Positions 7,182 to 33,175 of a stretch of 64,000 bases of DNA are shown here, one piece after another. The notes below the pieces were generated by a model. That model ran no database searches. It had not been told where the DNA came from and saw only the letters and a program-made list of their open reading frames with translations. The DNA is from Acidobacteriota bacterium (GTDB lineage: Bacteria; Acidobacteriota; Terriglobia; Terriglobales; Acidobacteriaceae), in the NCBI GenBank assembly GCA_003225175.1, contig QIBA01000029.1:62001-126000 (forward strand). Reading direction: 5' to 3'. Within the stretch, counting starts at the first letter, position 1. Each line of letters begins with the position of its first letter. The position numbers were made by a program, and so were the translations under genes.

Positions 7182-7257
7182 TGGTGGCCAGGGACGGAAT
7201 CGAACCGCCGACGCCAGCCTTTTCAGGGCTGCGCTCTACCATCTGAGCTACCTGGCC
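7182..7257 (-). tRNA. tRNA-Phe (anticodon GAA), CCA encoded
   Basis: Read on the minus strand, the 7-bp acceptor GGCCAGG pairs with CCTGGCC. The D stem is GCTC/GAGC, the anticodon stem CAGCC/GGCTG encloses loop CTGAAAA with anticodon GAA, and the T arm has loop TTCGATT. Discriminator A is followed by encoded CCA at 7184-7182. The 3' half faces the integrase, so it is the likely attachment site of the element on its left. The matching distal att copy was not found inside the window. Confidence 0.95.
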
Positions 7258-26215: not shown

Positions 26216-26935
26216 CTACAGAGTTCCGCTCGCAGGTCCGATACGAATCTCGTCAATCGACGTATTCTTCGGCATGATGAGGGCGAGAACCACAGCGCGC
26301 GCAATATCCTGAGTTGAGACCATCTTCTCCCGGGGAGCGTCGGGCCAGAACTGCTCCCAAATATTAGTATCCACTGCTCCAGGGATAAGCGCCATGACGC
26401 GAATTCCCTGCTCTCGCAGCTCCTCGCGCAATGTGTTGGTCAGTGCCAGCGCGCCCGCTTTGGAAGCGTTGTAGGCCGACATACCGGCGAATGGCTGGTT
26501 GGCCGCAACTGACAGGTTGTTAACAATTACAGCGCCTGAACTCATCAGCGGAATTGCCGCCCGGCAGCAAACAAATGTGCCTATTAAATTGATATCGACA
26601 ACGCGCCGAAATTCTTCGGGTGCAAGCCGCTCTACATTCGCGAGATGGTGTGCCGCTCCGGCGTTGTTAATCAAAAAGTCGAGAGACTTGAAGCGCTCCT
26701 GTACCGCCTGAAACAGTTCATTCACCTGGTCGGGATTAGAAACATCGCAGCGCTTGGCAGAGAGCGATAGATCTTCCCTTTTGAACTGTTCGACGGCTGA
26801 TTCGAGGGCTTCAGGATTCCGGCCGGCGATCGCAACACGACAACCGTGTCGTGCAAGCTCATGGGCAATTTCCAAGCCGATACCACGGCTTCCGCCGGTC
26901 ACGACTGCGGTTTTTCCTGTGAGATTAGCGTTCAT
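26216..26935 (-). CDS. short-chain dehydrogenase/reductase (SDR)
   Basis: From ATG 26935 the protein has 239 residues with the classical SDR pattern: cofactor motif TGGSRGIGLEIA, NNAG at the fourth strand, Ser before YNASKAG (catalytic Tyr and Lys). Arg residues after the second strand (AGRNPEA) suggest NADPH. It oxidises or reduces a carbonyl/alcohol. It lies 136 bases downstream of folE on the same strand, so a sepiapterin-reductase-like or dihydropterin-reductase role in the pterin cluster is possible but not shown by the sequence. Confidence 0.88.
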   Translation of the reverse strand: MNANLTGKTAVVTGGSRGIGLEIAHELARHGCRVAIAGRNPEALESAVEQFKREDLSLSAKRCDVSNPDQVNELFQAVQERFKSLDFLINNAGAAHHLANVERLAPEEFRRVVDINLIGTFVCCRAAIPLMSSGAVIVNNLSVAANQPFAGMSAYNASKAGALALTNTLREELREQGIRVMALIPGAVDTNIWEQFWPDAPREKMVSTQDIARAVVLALIMPKNTSIDEIRIGPASGTL

Positions 26936-27071
26936 CGTAGGCACGAACATTTAACGTGGTTACGGCCGTCCCACGCCGGGCTCTTGGTTTTGCTCTTCAC
27001 GATCTGAATGCCAGCCAAAGCCCGGCCGAGGGCGGCCGGAACCACGTTGCCCTTCGTGACAAAGAAAGATT

Positions 27072-27725
27072 TTAGAAGCCGTTGGGCTTGCCCGACCGGA
27101 TCAACGACAAGAATTCCTCTCGCGTTTCATGTTCGTTGCGAAAAGCGCCCAGCATAGACGACGTAACCGTAGCTGAGTGCTGCTTCTCGACTCCCCGCAT
27201 CATCATGCAAAGATGGCGCGCTTCGATCACAACGCCTACGCCGATGGGATCGATGGCGTCCTGAATGGCTTCCGCAATTTGCTTGGTGAGCCTCTCCTGA
27301 ACTTGGAGGCGACGGGCGAATACATCCACTAACCGTGGAATCTTGCTGAGCCCAATCACCTTTCCTTTGGGCAGGTACGCAACGTGCACCTTGCCGAAAA
27401 ACGGCAGCATGTGGTGCTCACAAAGGCTAAACATTTCGATGTCTTTGACGATGACCATCTCGTCATAGTCGACTTCGAAAAGAGCTCCGCGAAGAAGCTG
27501 CGCAGGATCTTCCTGGTAGCCGCGAGTGAGGAACCGAATGGCCTTTGCCATGCGCTCAGGAGTTCGCTTGAGGCCGTCGCGATCCGGATCTTCCCCGATT
27601 CTCTCGATTACTTCGAGATAAGCTTTCTCGAGAGCGGCTTCCGCTTGATCTTTTTCCTGCAGTGTCGTCTTCGGCATGGTCATTACGCGCTTTGCTGCAC
27701 TGCCTTTCACTCGATCTCCCTTCAT
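27072..27725 (-). CDS. folE: GTP cyclohydrolase I
   Basis: It converts GTP to 7,8-dihydroneopterin triphosphate, the first step of folate, biopterin and queuosine synthesis. The 217 residues contain the zinc/active-site segments [13 protein letters not shown] and [15 protein letters not shown], and [20 protein letters not shown]. The ATG at 27725 overlaps the stop of the upstream PTPS gene (ATGA), so it is translationally coupled; Met15 or Met17 are alternative starts. It is the third gene of the PTPS-PTPS-folE operon. Confidence 0.96.
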
Positions 27726-28171
27726 CCTTCTACCCGTTTTGGAACTGCAGCCGGGCCAAGTTGCCGGCCGCCTGCGTACTCAAAAGAATTCATCATCGTT
27801 TCTTCAATCCGGACCTTCTCAACGATGGCCAGCTTGAAGTGATCGCGAAAGAGATGAAACAACTCACGCGAAAGATTCTCAGTAGTAGGCACGAGGTTCC
27901 GAAATTTATCTAACTGGTTGAGATTGCTGAACTCGAACATCGGCATAACGACCGTATCAACGAAGCCATCCAGATCGGCCAGATTGCAGATCATTCCTGT
28001 TTCCGGATCAGGTTGCCCGCTGACCGTGATCTCGACCTTATAGTTGTGACCGTGACCATATGGATTGTTGCATTTGCCATACATCTCGCGGTTCTCAGCG
28101 TCGTTGAAATGAGGCGAATGCAGCCGGTGAGAGGCTGAGAACTTGTACCGCCTTGTGAGATGGACCTTCAT
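27722..28171 (-). CDS. PTPS/QueD-family protein lacking the catalytic Asp-His pair
   Basis: A 149-residue T-fold protein with zinc ligands His15 (FSASH), His40 and His42 (GHGHNY), Cys34 (GKC) and Glu124 (IEET). Where the family has an Asp-His pair before LN, this protein has Glu80-Phe81 (MFEFSNLN), so the normal proton relay is missing. It may be a divergent enzyme, a substrate-binding subunit, or make a heteromer with its neighbour. Overlaps by ATGA with both the upstream PTPS and downstream folE show tight coupling. QueD and eukaryote-type PTPS both use dihydroneopterin triphosphate. Confidence 0.88.
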
Positions 28172-28578
28172 GGTTCACCGTAGATGTCCACGAAGAGGTC
28201 GTCCGTTTCGTAAAGGCGCACCCGATGCAGTTTGGCTCCGTTCAGCTTTCCCGCCAGGCGGTTCCAGATGACGATCGCAAGATTTTCGGTGGTGGGAATC
28301 TTGTCGCGAAACTCGGGAACTTCCTTATTCAGGTGCCGATGGTCGAGGTCGTCGATCACTTCATGGTTCATGAGGTCTTTAAGCTTCTTGAGGTCCATGA
28401 CGAAGCCGGAGCGCTCGTCAACCTCACCAGCCACAGTGACTTCCAGCGTGTAATTGTGGCCGTGCCCATGCGGATTGTTGCACTTGCCGAAGATGCGCTG
28501 GTTTTCTTCCGGTGACAATTTGGGATTGTGATAGAAGTGCGAGGCGGAAAACTCAGCCTTCCGCGTGAGATAGACCAT
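28168..28578 (-). CDS. 6-pyruvoyl-tetrahydropterin / 6-carboxytetrahydropterin synthase
   Basis: A 136-residue T-fold enzyme with the full catalytic set: zinc His14, His39, His41; Cys33 (GKCNNPHGHGHNY); Asp79-His80 (LDHRHLN); Glu124 (LYETDD). It converts the folE product, either to 6-pyruvoyl-tetrahydropterin (biopterin route) or 6-carboxytetrahydropterin (queuosine route). Other queuosine genes (queC, queE) are not in the window, so the product is open. First gene of a coupled operon with a paralogue and folE. The 5' side is divergent from the TlpA-like gene. Confidence 0.93.
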   Translation of the reverse strand: MVYLTRKAEFSASHFYHNPKLSPEENQRIFGKCNNPHGHGHNYTLEVTVAGEVDERSGFVMDLKKLKDLMNHEVIDDLDHRHLNKEVPEFRDKIPTTENLAIVIWNRLAGKLNGAKLHRVRLYETDDLFVDIYGEP

Positions 28579-28622
28579 GCTTGTGCCTTGAGTTCGTTTC
28601 CGTTGGATTTATTATACGTAGC

Positions 28623-29141
28623 GTGAGCTCTGCTCCCCTGTGTATCAGAGTCTTAAGGCTCCTATCCGTTGCATTTTTTATGGTGTTGCAGGGATGCGAC
28701 CGGGGTGCGCGGCCAGAGCTCGTTGGTCATTCAGCGCCCGATTTTACGGTTTCAGATTCGCAGCGGACTCTATCGCTGCATGACTACAAGGGGCAAGTTG
28801 TTGTCCTGAATTTCTGGGCGAGCTGGTGCGCTCCCTGCATCGAGGAGATGCCGTCGCTGATCCAGATGCAGCACAACATGCGCGATCGCGTGACCGTTCT
28901 GGCGGTGGCTACCGACCACGATCCAGATATGTACAGGAAGTTCATTCGGGATCACAATGTTGACCTGATTACAGTCAACGATCCCGCTCAGAAGAGTAGC
29001 GACACGTATGGGACCTCCGGCTGGCCGGAGACATACATCATCGACCGCAAAGGTATAGTCCGGCGCAAGTTTATTGGGCCGGTCGAGTGGACTAGTCCTG
29101 CTATTGTGGCGTATCTCGAGGGATTGCGGACGGAATCCTAA
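28623..29141 (+). CDS. TlpA/ResA-like thioredoxin lipoprotein
   Basis: The likely start is GTG 28623, giving about 172 residues. The frame is open to 28581 upstream. An N-terminal hydrophobic segment (VLRLLSVAFFMVLQGC) ends in a lipobox, so the protein is probably anchored outside the inner membrane. The AhpC/TSA-thioredoxin domain has the active site WASWCAPCIEEMPSL. Relatives reduce disulfides in cytochrome c or other exported proteins. It shares a short divergent promoter region with the PTPS operon. Confidence 0.88.
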   Translation: MSSAPLCIRVLRLLSVAFFMVLQGCDRGARPELVGHSAPDFTVSDSQRTLSLHDYKGQVVVLNFWASWCAPCIEEMPSLIQMQHNMRDRVTVLAVATDHDPDMYRKFIRDHNVDLITVNDPAQKSSDTYGTSGWPETYIIDRKGIVRRKFIGPVEWTSPAIVAYLEGLRTES

Positions 29142-29405: not shown

Positions 29406-31913
29406 CTAAAGCGATATCCGCCTCAGCCTTAGCGAATTCGTAATCACTGAAACGGAACTCAGACTCATGGCAGCGGCGGCAAAGATCGGATTAAGCGTCA
29501 TGTGAAATACTGGGTAAAGCGCCCCCGCAGCCAGTGGGATCCCAGCCGCGTTATAAATAAAAGCAAAGAACAGATTCTGGCGAATGTTGCGCATAACCGC
29601 CTTACTGAGCCGGCGTGCCCGCAGGATGCCCCGCAAATCTCCCTTGACCAAAGCAATATCGGCACTCTCAAGAGCGACATCGGTACCGGTCCCCATCGCA
29701 ATTCCAACATCGGCCTGCGCCAGCGCAGGCGCGTCATTGATGCCATCTCCAGCCATCGCCACTCGTCGGCCGCGCGATTGCTGATCGCGCACGAGCTCAG
29801 CCTTACCTTCAGGCGTGACTTCGGCCTGAATTTCCCCAACGGCAACCTGCCGAGCTACGGCTTCGGCAGTTGTCCGATTGTCGCCCGTGGCCATGATGAC
29901 ATGAACTCTTTGCGCACTCAGTTCCTTCACTACATCTGGCGTCGACCCCCGGATTGGGTCGGCTACTGCAATCAGTGCGGAGAGTTCCCCATTCATCGAA
30001 GCAAATAGCACGGTTTTTGCCTGAGTGCGCAGTTGTAGCGCCACGCTTTCAGCAGAGCTCACATCAACACCTGCTCTCCGCATTTGTTCGGCGCTTCCAA
30101 TTACCAGCCGCAAGCGACGAGCGGTGGCAGTCAACGTTGCCGTAATCCCATTCCCAGTTTCTGACTCGAAGTCCGACACCGGCAGCAGACTCAATCCAAA
30201 CGATTGCGCAGCTCGCAGGATCGCACCGGCAATCGGATGTTCACTTTGGGATTCCACGCTGGCGACCGCCTGCAAGACGTCTTTCTCGGAGACGTTGCCG
30301 AAGACCTTAACGTCAGTAACTTCCGGCCTCCCCAGCGTCAAAGTTCCGGTCTTGTCAACAATCAGTGTGTCGATCTTCTCCATAGCCTCAAGCGCGCGCG
30401 CATCTCGCACGAGCACACCGTGACGAGCGCCTTCTCCTGTTCCAACCATGATCGCCATCGGCGTAGCTAATCCCAGTGCACAAGGACAGGCGATGATGAG
30501 TACTGCCACGGCGCTAACCAAGGCATGAGCGAAGCGAGGTTCCGGACCAAAAAAGAACCAACCCAAAAACGCGGCGGCGGCGCACACAATTACTGCCGGG
30601 ACAAAAATGGCAGCTACCTGATCAGCAAGACGCTGAATCGGCGCGCGGCTGCGCTGTGCCGAGGCAACCATCGCTACGATCTGCGCCAATAATGTCTCGC
30701 TGCCCACACGCTCGGCAACCATCAGTAGCGATCCAGTGCCGTTCAGAGTGCCACCGATTATCTGGCCGCCTGGCTGCTTAAACGCCGGCAGGGATTCACC
30801 AGTAACCATCGATTCATCGACACTGCTCTTCCCTTCTACTACGCGCCCATCAACGGGTACCTTTTCGCCAGGACGAATACGCAGTCTATCGCCCAAGATA
30901 ATGTCCGCGACTGGAACATCAATGTCTTTCCCCGATTCTTGAATTCTGTGGGCAGTCTTTGGTGACAGGTCCAGGAGAGCGCGAATCGCACCGCTGGTCT
31001 CCTTGCGCGCGCGTAGCTCCATGACTTGTCCGAGAAGAACCAGGACAGTAATGGATGCGCTGACCTCGAAGTAGAGATCCGCGCGTCCGATGCCTTGAGC
31101 GATTCTGGCCAGCAGCCCCCGAGGCAGAATCGTCACGACGAGGCTGTAGAGGAATGCGACACCCGTACCCATCGCAATCAGGGTGAACATGTTGAGATTG
31201 CGACTGCGGATGGAATTCCATCCTCTTTCAAAAAAAGGAGCGCCTCCCCAAAGAACAACGGGGGCTGCGAGGGCGAGCTGAAGCCATGCTGAAGCCCGCG
31301 TCATATCGAACTCATGCAGCCCGCCCGACCTCAGCATGCCGCCCATGCTGATCACGAGCAAAGGAATGGTAAGAGCGAGGCCAACCCAAAAACGCAAGCG
31401 CATGCTGCGCAGCTCGTCATCGTCTTCCTCCGCTGCGCCTACTGCAATGCGTGGCTCAAGCGCCATGCCACAGATCGGACAGACTCCGGACCGGTTGGAG
31501 AGAACCTCCGGATGCATTGGGCACACGTACTCGGTTGTTGTGGCGCTCAGCAGCTCCGGCTCCAGAGCCATTCCGCATTTGGGACACGAAGCCGGTTTCG
31601 TAAAAATGACCTCCGGATCCATGGGGCAAAAATATTTGGGTGACGTCGGGGGTTTAGCTACCTCCTGCCTCGTGGGCTGCTTACTGACATGAGGTGACGT
31701 TGTGCCTAACTGAACCAATTCCCTGGAAGGCTGTGTCGACGCTTTGAGATATTTTTCTGGATCAGCACTGAATCGCTCTGCGCATGAGGTGCAGCAAAAA
31801 AAATAGTGATTGCCCCCGTGCTCCCTAATCGCACGGGCATGCGCAGGATCAACCTGCATCCCGCACACGGGATCGACCACCGAGCCGGGCGTAGTTTTCA
31901 GTTCGTTCTGCAT
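29406..31913 (-). CDS. heavy-metal P-type ATPase with YHS and two CPM(H/D)PEV domains
   Basis: An 835-residue P1B ATPase. Residues about 12-58 are a YHS domain ([17 protein letters not shown]). Two heavy-metal-binding modules follow (about 93-120, [21 protein letters not shown]; about 129-155, [21 protein letters not shown]). Eight membrane segments follow, with the CPC motif ([13 protein letters not shown]), phosphorylation site [11 protein letters not shown] motif SEHPIAG and [13 protein letters not shown] and the module set fit Cu(I)/Ag(I) export, CopA-like. It starts 5 bases after the EVE gene on the same strand. Confidence 0.95.
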
Positions 31914-33098: not shown

Positions 33099-33175
33099 GC
33101 GCCCTTAGCTCAGTTGGATAGAGCGTCTGACTACGAATCAGAAGGTCGGGAGTTCGAATCTCTCAGGGCGCGCCA
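33099..33175 (+). tRNA. tRNA-Arg (anticodon ACG), CCA encoded
   Basis: Acceptor GCGCCCT pairs with AGGGCGC. The D stem is GCTC/GAGC, the anticodon stem TCTGA/TCAGA encloses CTACGAA (anticodon ACG, read as ICG after deamination), and the T loop is TTCGAAT. Discriminator G and encoded CCA follow (33172-33175). TATAATTTTT about 47 bases upstream fits a -10 element. Confidence 0.96.

Follow-up and report, generated by a model that had tools for sequence, protein, structure and literature searches.

6-Pyruvoyl-tetrahydropterin synthase (PTPS), whose enzyme family is implicated in human disease, has a catalytic triad that crosses a subunit boundary, in which one subunit provides Cys42 and the adjacent one Asp88/His89. 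A 1995 title by Burgisser speaks of an "intersubunit catalytic triad motif" in PTPS, and a dual-domain bacterial PTPS is, judging from another title, said to have been described by Kong et al. in FEBS Letters in 2006. Here, we describe two adjacent PTPS genes, PTPS-alpha and PTPS-beta (hereafter alpha and beta), which precede folE and a short-chain dehydrogenase/reductase (SDR) gene in a 64,000-nucleotide stretch of DNA from an Acidobacteriota bacterium (contig QIBA01000029.1, positions 62,001 to 126,000; hereafter the window). On balance, we lean toward the view that the products of the two genes assemble into a heteromeric PTPS-II-type 6-pyruvoyl-tetrahydropterin synthase with alpha and beta subunits, an unfused relative of the dual-domain bacterial PTPS. 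The two subunits would be adjacent in the assembled T-fold barrel, and the Cys-zinc site of beta would be completed by Asp-His from the neighboring alpha, so that beta's own Asp-His would be free to drift. The simplest reading, given the intersubunit triad known from PTPS, is a heteromer that shares its active site. If true, the pair would be a natural experiment in which a shared inter-subunit site lets one duplicated subunit shed catalytic residues, and the annotation of beta-type genes as stand-alone PTPS may be wrong.

Both proteins have in common with the mammalian enzymes of known structure, 3i2b (human) and 1b66 (presumably rat PTPS), the zinc ligands, the Cys, the Glu, and the motif CxxxxxHGH, and these structures are their best PDB matches (1b66 and then 3i2b for alpha, 3i2b for beta). 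However, the mammalian intersubunit triad is built from one chain type with Asp-His, whereas the window has two chains, and beta is without the pair. The dual-domain bacterial PTPS-II likewise has two PTPS modules tied to bacterial tetrahydrobiopterin (BH4) synthesis, and its first modules group with alpha; it is one polypeptide, whereas the window has two overlapping open reading frames (ORFs), the second lacking Asp-His. We take the assayed Synechococcus PTPS-II to be such a dual-domain enzyme. Canonical PTPS activity in vitro has been reported for the Synechococcus PTPS-II (PMC5041015). In bimodular QueF (e.g., that of V. cholerae), two T-fold modules each carry part of the conserved elements, which come together at an interdomain site (PMC5372742). 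The parallel is that the elements of one active site are divided between two T-fold modules; QueF represents another T-fold family with another reaction, is a single polypeptide, and is not a relative by membership. The idea that paired PTPS modules are unprecedented is not supported, given the dual-domain bacterial PTPS reportedly described in 2006. A 2017 study places bacterial BH4 synthesis beyond phototrophs, in intestinal Actinobacteria (PMC5227711), and such a spread is therefore not claimed as new. The features that appear to be new are the conserved alpha-beta pairing of two separate genes and its complementary residue pattern, of which no published account was found in a limited literature search that covered few subscription journals.

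Catalytic residues and family placement

The catalytic and zinc residues of alpha are C33, H14/H39/H41, D79-H80, and E124. Beta has C34, H15/H40/H42, and E124, and carries E80-F81 at the Asp-His columns, as aligned with PTPS of known structure and with 91 orthologs. The initial annotation had assigned the Cys, the Glu, and the residues at the Asp-His site of both proteins in the same way, and the sequence and the alignment bear it out. Inspection of the whole beta sequence revealed no other Asp-His within the core to take over this role.

Both proteins belong to the PTPS family by PF01242 (132 bits for alpha and 98.4 bits for beta; gathering cut-off 22.4 bits). They score below the curated cut-offs of the PTPS/QueD model TIGR00039 (98.9 and 78.5 bits, respectively; cut-off 125.5 bits) and of the QueD model TIGR03367 (76.9 and 55.2 bits; cut-off 89.25 bits), the latter being exceeded by the third paralog of the genome, in locus L001 (108.4 bits). 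The motif CxxxxxHGH, which defines PTPS-II (PMC5041015), is present in both alpha (C33NNPHGHGH) and beta (C34NNPYGHGH). The Asp-His of the PTPS-II triad occurs in alpha and is missing from beta, and beta alone is therefore not classed as a canonical PTPS-II enzyme. The Glu that replaces or directly follows the catalytic Cys in PTPS-III is found in neither protein (CNNPHG in alpha, CNNPYG in beta). The ratio of nonsynonymous to synonymous substitution rates (dN/dS) was 0.05-0.06 for beta in three comparisons and 0.024-0.028 for alpha in two, a third alpha comparison having yielded no dS; the values are rough because dS ranged from 0.79 to 1.96. Given these low ratios, decay of the beta gene seems unlikely.

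Conservation of the pair in the family of the window

In the family to which the window belongs (f1), 179 of 186 genomes gave at least three PTPS matches each. In a sister family of the same order (f2), 13 of 14 genomes had one match and 1 had none. We compared 92 f1 pairs, that of the window included, which comprised the 30 best matches, 2 pairs from a later search, and 60 picked across genera; this sample is biased toward sequences resembling the window's beta. Alpha lies before beta on the same strand in all 92 pairs, and folE is present on the same strand in 91. The residues of alpha are almost invariant, with Asp-His, the zinc ligands, and the Glu in 92 of 92 and the Cys in 91 (Thr in L019). 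Beta keeps the Cys, the zinc ligands, and the Glu in all 92 pairs and Asp-His in 59, so the loss of the latter is lineage-specific. The 33 beta proteins without Asp-His show 13 other residue pairs at this site, and in some of them just the Asp or just the His is altered. The loss corresponds to 15 changes on a poorly resolved tree, of which at least three are forced by well-supported branches.

Fused and separate pairs in other groups

A profile search across the phylum Acidobacteriota (297 genomes) found two PTPS matches within one open frame in at least 6 genomes. In the five fusions of group f17 (L049-L053), the first module has Asp-His and lacks the Cys, and the second has the Cys and lacks Asp-His. 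The first module of the f10 fusion (L048) is also without the Cys, and its second has Asp-Cys. Among separate neighbors, both members are complete in f20 (L054-L056), alpha lacks the Cys and beta is complete in f5 (L057, L058), and in the f56 pair (L059) alpha lacks the Cys and beta lacks Asp-His. In L059, which comes from a distant member of the phylum, the HGH of alpha is altered to FGH and the PTPS in the beta position is very divergent.

The fusions were also used as queries in a scan of contigs, in which a GHGHNY-type zinc motif or a first-module pattern was required. The best 80 of 269 loci were analyzed, and they give no frequency of fusions because the query favors fusions. They came from Acidobacteriota, Herpetosiphon, Binatota/Binatia, a record titled Desulfurellaceae, Bacilli, cyanobacteria, Gemmatimonadetes, Latescibacterota, Armatimonadetes, and a Vampirovibrio. 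Profiles recognized at least two PTPS modules in all 80, with three in four Nostoc proteins. Among the 76 two-module proteins, the first module has the Cys without an intact Asp-His (mostly Asp-Gly) and the second is complete in 51, and both modules are complete in 12. In 7 proteins the first module has Asp-His without the Cys and the second the Cys without the pair, although L082 owes its place here to the truncation of its second module. In 5 proteins the first module is without the Cys and also without an intact pair, and in the last one it has just Asp-His and the second module is complete.

The four Nostoc proteins (L141, L144, L147, L150) are about 429 aa long in a single frame. Their first module is missing the Cys, one zinc ligand, and an intact Asp-His, and their second has a QueD-like CxxxHGH spacing.

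Pooling the 92 f1 pairs, the two-module fusions except L082, and the six separate pairs gave 173 rows. An intact Asp-His is absent from alpha in 56 rows, from beta in 40, and from both in none, and the Cys is absent from alpha in 16 and from beta in none. In 8 rows neither module has all three residues, and it is then always alpha that has Asp-His and beta that has the Cys. The fusions of f17 and f10 and the pair L019, in which no module has the full triad, appear to make the strongest case for sharing.

Phylogeny and structure model

In a tree of 77 modules, which contains long branches and whose bootstrap had not settled, one group of 34 rows took in all 8 alpha proteins and all 7 of the separate copies that lie upstream, together with 18 of the 19 first modules and another single copy. 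Three cyanobacterial first modules are among those that group with alpha. Beta, the second modules, single-domain PTPS-II, QueD, the first module of L115, and 1b66 fall outside. With support of 87/98, this grouping indicates that alpha and the first modules of fused PTPS descend from a common ancestor.

An AlphaFold2 model of the L072 fusion had a predicted local distance difference test (pLDDT) score of 94.5 and a predicted template modeling (pTM) score of 0.89. Its first module matches PTPS (1gtq, Z 19.7, model residues 2-139). Taken together, the two modules match uricase (Z 10.6-12.3 over 216-227 residues, root-mean-square deviation 4.3-4.9) and GTP cyclohydrolase IB (Z 10.6-10.8 over 196-203 residues). 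Foldseek placed PTPS at the top and also listed uricase and GTP cyclohydrolase IB. The matched chains of these two enzymes are presumably tandem T-folds, and the model would thus place the fused modules side by side, as a shared interface site needs.

Pathway context and folate

The steps of BH4 synthesis are those of FolE, PTPS, and sepiapterin reductase (PMC5041015). At this locus, FolE would form dihydroneopterin triphosphate, alpha-beta would convert it to 6-pyruvoyl-tetrahydropterin, and the SDR would reduce this product to a tetrahydrobiopterin-like pterin. Such a route would be similar to that by which animals form BH4. Sepiapterin reductase is itself an SDR. Within 1.5 kb on the same strand, 69 of the 80 fused loci have folE and/or an SDR-family ORF (41 have both, 17 just the SDR, and 11 just folE), and 11 have neither; an SDR-family ORF thus lies beside 58 of them. 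An SDR homolog is also present in 26 of the loci of the 29 relatives that, with the window, make up the 30 best matches, and in 38 of all 92 pair loci, many of which are in stretches too short to contain it. The neighbors of the fused loci support the BH4-like route with the SDR as reductase that was proposed in the initial annotation. The SDR product belongs to the SDR family (PF00106, 190.1 bits). No sepiapterin reductase is named among the PDB matches listed for it (60 of 391), and the profile library gave generic SDR models, none above its curated cut-off among the matches listed (25 of 236). The product of folE matches TIGR00063 with 263.4 bits (cut-off 181.6). The route suggests that a whole bacterial family makes a biopterin-like cofactor, though the genome of the window has no match to an aromatic amino acid hydroxylase, nitric oxide (NO) synthase, or FA_hydroxylase.

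Supply of BH4 to aromatic hydroxylases was considered as the role of the pair and rejected, since Biopterin_H is found in 6 of 14 f2 genomes, which are without alpha-beta. The Pterin_4a dehydratase has a match in this genome and is not informative, because it is present in 37 of 41 genomes, f2 included. In the Bacillota fused loci L091 (4828-7326) and L095 (4958-7360), a gene of about 800 aa follows PTPS and an SDR gene lies upstream; the start of the long gene reads as a membrane sensor, and pterin-linked signaling is possible there.

Folate is probably served by a separate protein. The third PTPS in the genome is recognized by its score as QueD (L001, 1495-1872) and has the motif CExxHGH; the frame after it reads, we assume, as queE. 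A QueD with CExxHGH was found in 21 of 21 loci (among L001 and L212-L232; 10 from f1, 10 from f2, and 1 from f3). Among 41 genomes, this one and its relatives, FolB exceeded the cut-off in 1, which is not among the 40 from f1-f3, and HPPK was found in 38 of 41 and in 12 of 14 from f2. The one genome with FolB (G208) gave no match to a QueD with CExxHGH. A 281-aa ORF of this genome, possibly urate-oxidase-like from its appearance, gives a sub-threshold FolB match (22.5 bits; cut-off 31.8). CExxHGH is the motif of the hybrid PTPS-I/III (PMC5041015). The hybrid is of the same Pfam family as alpha and beta; a protein with its motif is present elsewhere in the genome, and the motif occurs in neither of them. 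The combination of a CExxHGH QueD and no FolB fits a hybrid PTPS-I/III folate bypass across f1-f3. A folate bypass as the job of beta was set aside, in view of the CExxHGH QueD in every locus of that set and of f2, which shows no second PTPS match and yet has HPPK in 12 of 14 genomes.

Proposed heteromeric synthase and alternative explanations

The initial annotation had suggested that the pair may act together in an unusual pterin route. Joint action gains indirect support from the order fixed in all 92 pairs, the fusions, the grouping of alpha with first modules, and the complementary residues. The idea of new chemistry arising from the Asp-His loss is not supported, as most beta orthologs (59 of 92) keep the pair. 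A further claim is that the PTPS is an obligate heteromer with a split triad (Cys-zinc from beta, Asp-His from alpha), that the phylum has arrived at this division in the form of two genes as well as of fusions, and that the enzyme makes a cofactor for an enzyme outside the known BH4-dependent families; we put this forward tentatively and would sooner doubt it than accept it.

Several observations weigh against the heteromer and its proposed pathway. Seventy-four of the 173 pairs and fusions are complete in both modules and need no sharing, and 51 fusions join a complete second module to a first that has the Cys without an intact pair. In the 5 fusions whose first module lacks both the Cys and the pair, beta-beta sites would have to suffice. 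Of the 92 family pairs, 91, that of the window included, have an alpha that is itself complete and could act alone; beta could then be a structural or differently acting protein. PTPS is described as a hexamer of two trimers of identical monomers with each site between three monomers (PMC7546909), and alpha and beta cannot alternate symmetrically around a ring of three. The 173 rows are related and the complementary losses are clustered in a few clades, so that the rows amount to far fewer independent events. In the tree, the support of the alpha group lies below the tool's star, the first module of L115 falls outside that group, and the branching order among beta, second modules, and single-domain PTPS-II is weakly resolved. 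As for pterin users, Biopterin_H is absent from this genome and from all 6 genomes of the genus (present in 13 of 41 overall) and does not track alpha-beta (6 of 25 in f1, 6 of 14 in f2). NO synthase was found in 0 of 41 genomes, this one included, and FA_hydroxylase, present in 9 of 41 with one congener among them, was not found in this genome.

The completeness of alpha in 91 pairs and the repeated loss of the dyad from beta would also agree with an alpha homohexamer as the working PTPS and beta as a pseudoenzyme that stabilizes or regulates it and gives no catalytic residues. We regard this as unlikely. Beta keeps the Cys, all zinc ligands, and the Glu in 92 of 92 pairs, unlike a mere scaffold, and alpha lacks the Cys in L019 and in the fusions of f17 and f10, so that alpha alone has no full triad there. 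Beta could instead be a separate enzyme that does not share alpha's site and acts on dihydroneopterin triphosphate or a later pterin, for example to bypass FolB for folate. Since FolB is nearly absent (not found in this genome) while HPPK is common among the 41 genomes, some bypass is needed. However, beta has no PTPS-III Glu and keeps the Cys, the hybrid PTPS-I/III motif is carried by the separate QueD-like protein in all 21 loci, and f2, with one PTPS match or none per genome, still has HPPK in 12 of 14, which makes such a role of beta distinctly improbable.

A duplication that left two paralogs of equal function, maintained for dosage while beta slowly decays, would be consistent with the PTPS-II-like character of both proteins and with the 59 complete beta orthologs. 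We consider it highly improbable, because alpha and beta are placed apart in the tree, where alpha groups with partners from other phyla, the order is fixed in all 92 pairs, the dN/dS of beta is about 0.05-0.06, and Asp-His is never lost from both modules of a pair. The heteromeric PTPS with a shared site thus remains the reading that we favor.

Organization of the locus

The coordinates of the locus are given in Table 1. The gene order PTPS, PTPS, folE, and then the SDR gene, as first annotated, agrees with the ORFs and the sequence. The ATGA overlaps noted at both junctions are present as letters (28168-28171 between alpha and beta, 27722-27725 between beta and folE), the second of them holding only if folE starts at its first ATG. 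This overlap is not kept in the congener L006, where about 195 bp separate the end of beta from the point at which the frame of folE opens. The gap between folE and the SDR gene is 121 bp.

Table 1. Features of the alpha-beta locus, with positions counted from the first letter of the window.
Feature	Position	Strand	Basis
PTPS-alpha, 136 aa, full Cys-Asp-His	28168..28578	-	PF01242 132 bits, PDB match, tree, table of 92 pairs
Asp79-His80 codons of PTPS-alpha	28339..28344	-	Sequence; Asp-His in 92/92 pairs
Cys33 codon of PTPS-alpha	28480..28482	-	Sequence; Cys in 91/92 pairs, Thr in L019
PTPS-beta, 149 aa, without Asp-His	27722..28171	-	PF01242 98.4 bits, PDB match, tree, pair table
Glu80-Phe81 codons at the Asp-His site of PTPS-beta	27929..27934	-	Sequence; Asp-His in 59/92 pairs
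Cys34 codon of PTPS-beta	28070..28072	-	Sequence; Cys in 92/92 pairs
folE, GTP cyclohydrolase I, 217 aa as listed, ambiguous start	27072..27725	-	TIGR00063
SDR oxidoreductase, candidate sepiapterin-reductase-like, 244 aa	26216..26950	-	PF00106; neighborhood of relatives and fused loci

No riboswitch or other RNA was found upstream of the pair; at Rfam gathering scores, the whole window gave two tRNAs alone, tRNA-Phe (7182-7257, minus strand) and tRNA-Arg (33099-33175, plus strand). Scans for promoters and terminators gave signals at chance level or below. A copper-type P-type ATPase gene, so labeled from a reading of its translation, lies at 29406-31913 on the minus strand. A TlpA/ResA-like redoxin gene (28581-29141, plus strand) adjoins alpha in divergent orientation. 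A redoxin homolog is also found near the pair in other genera (L005, L006, L008) and in another family (L057, L058, L066, L067). The redoxin beside the pair perhaps protects the pterin or the catalytic cysteines.

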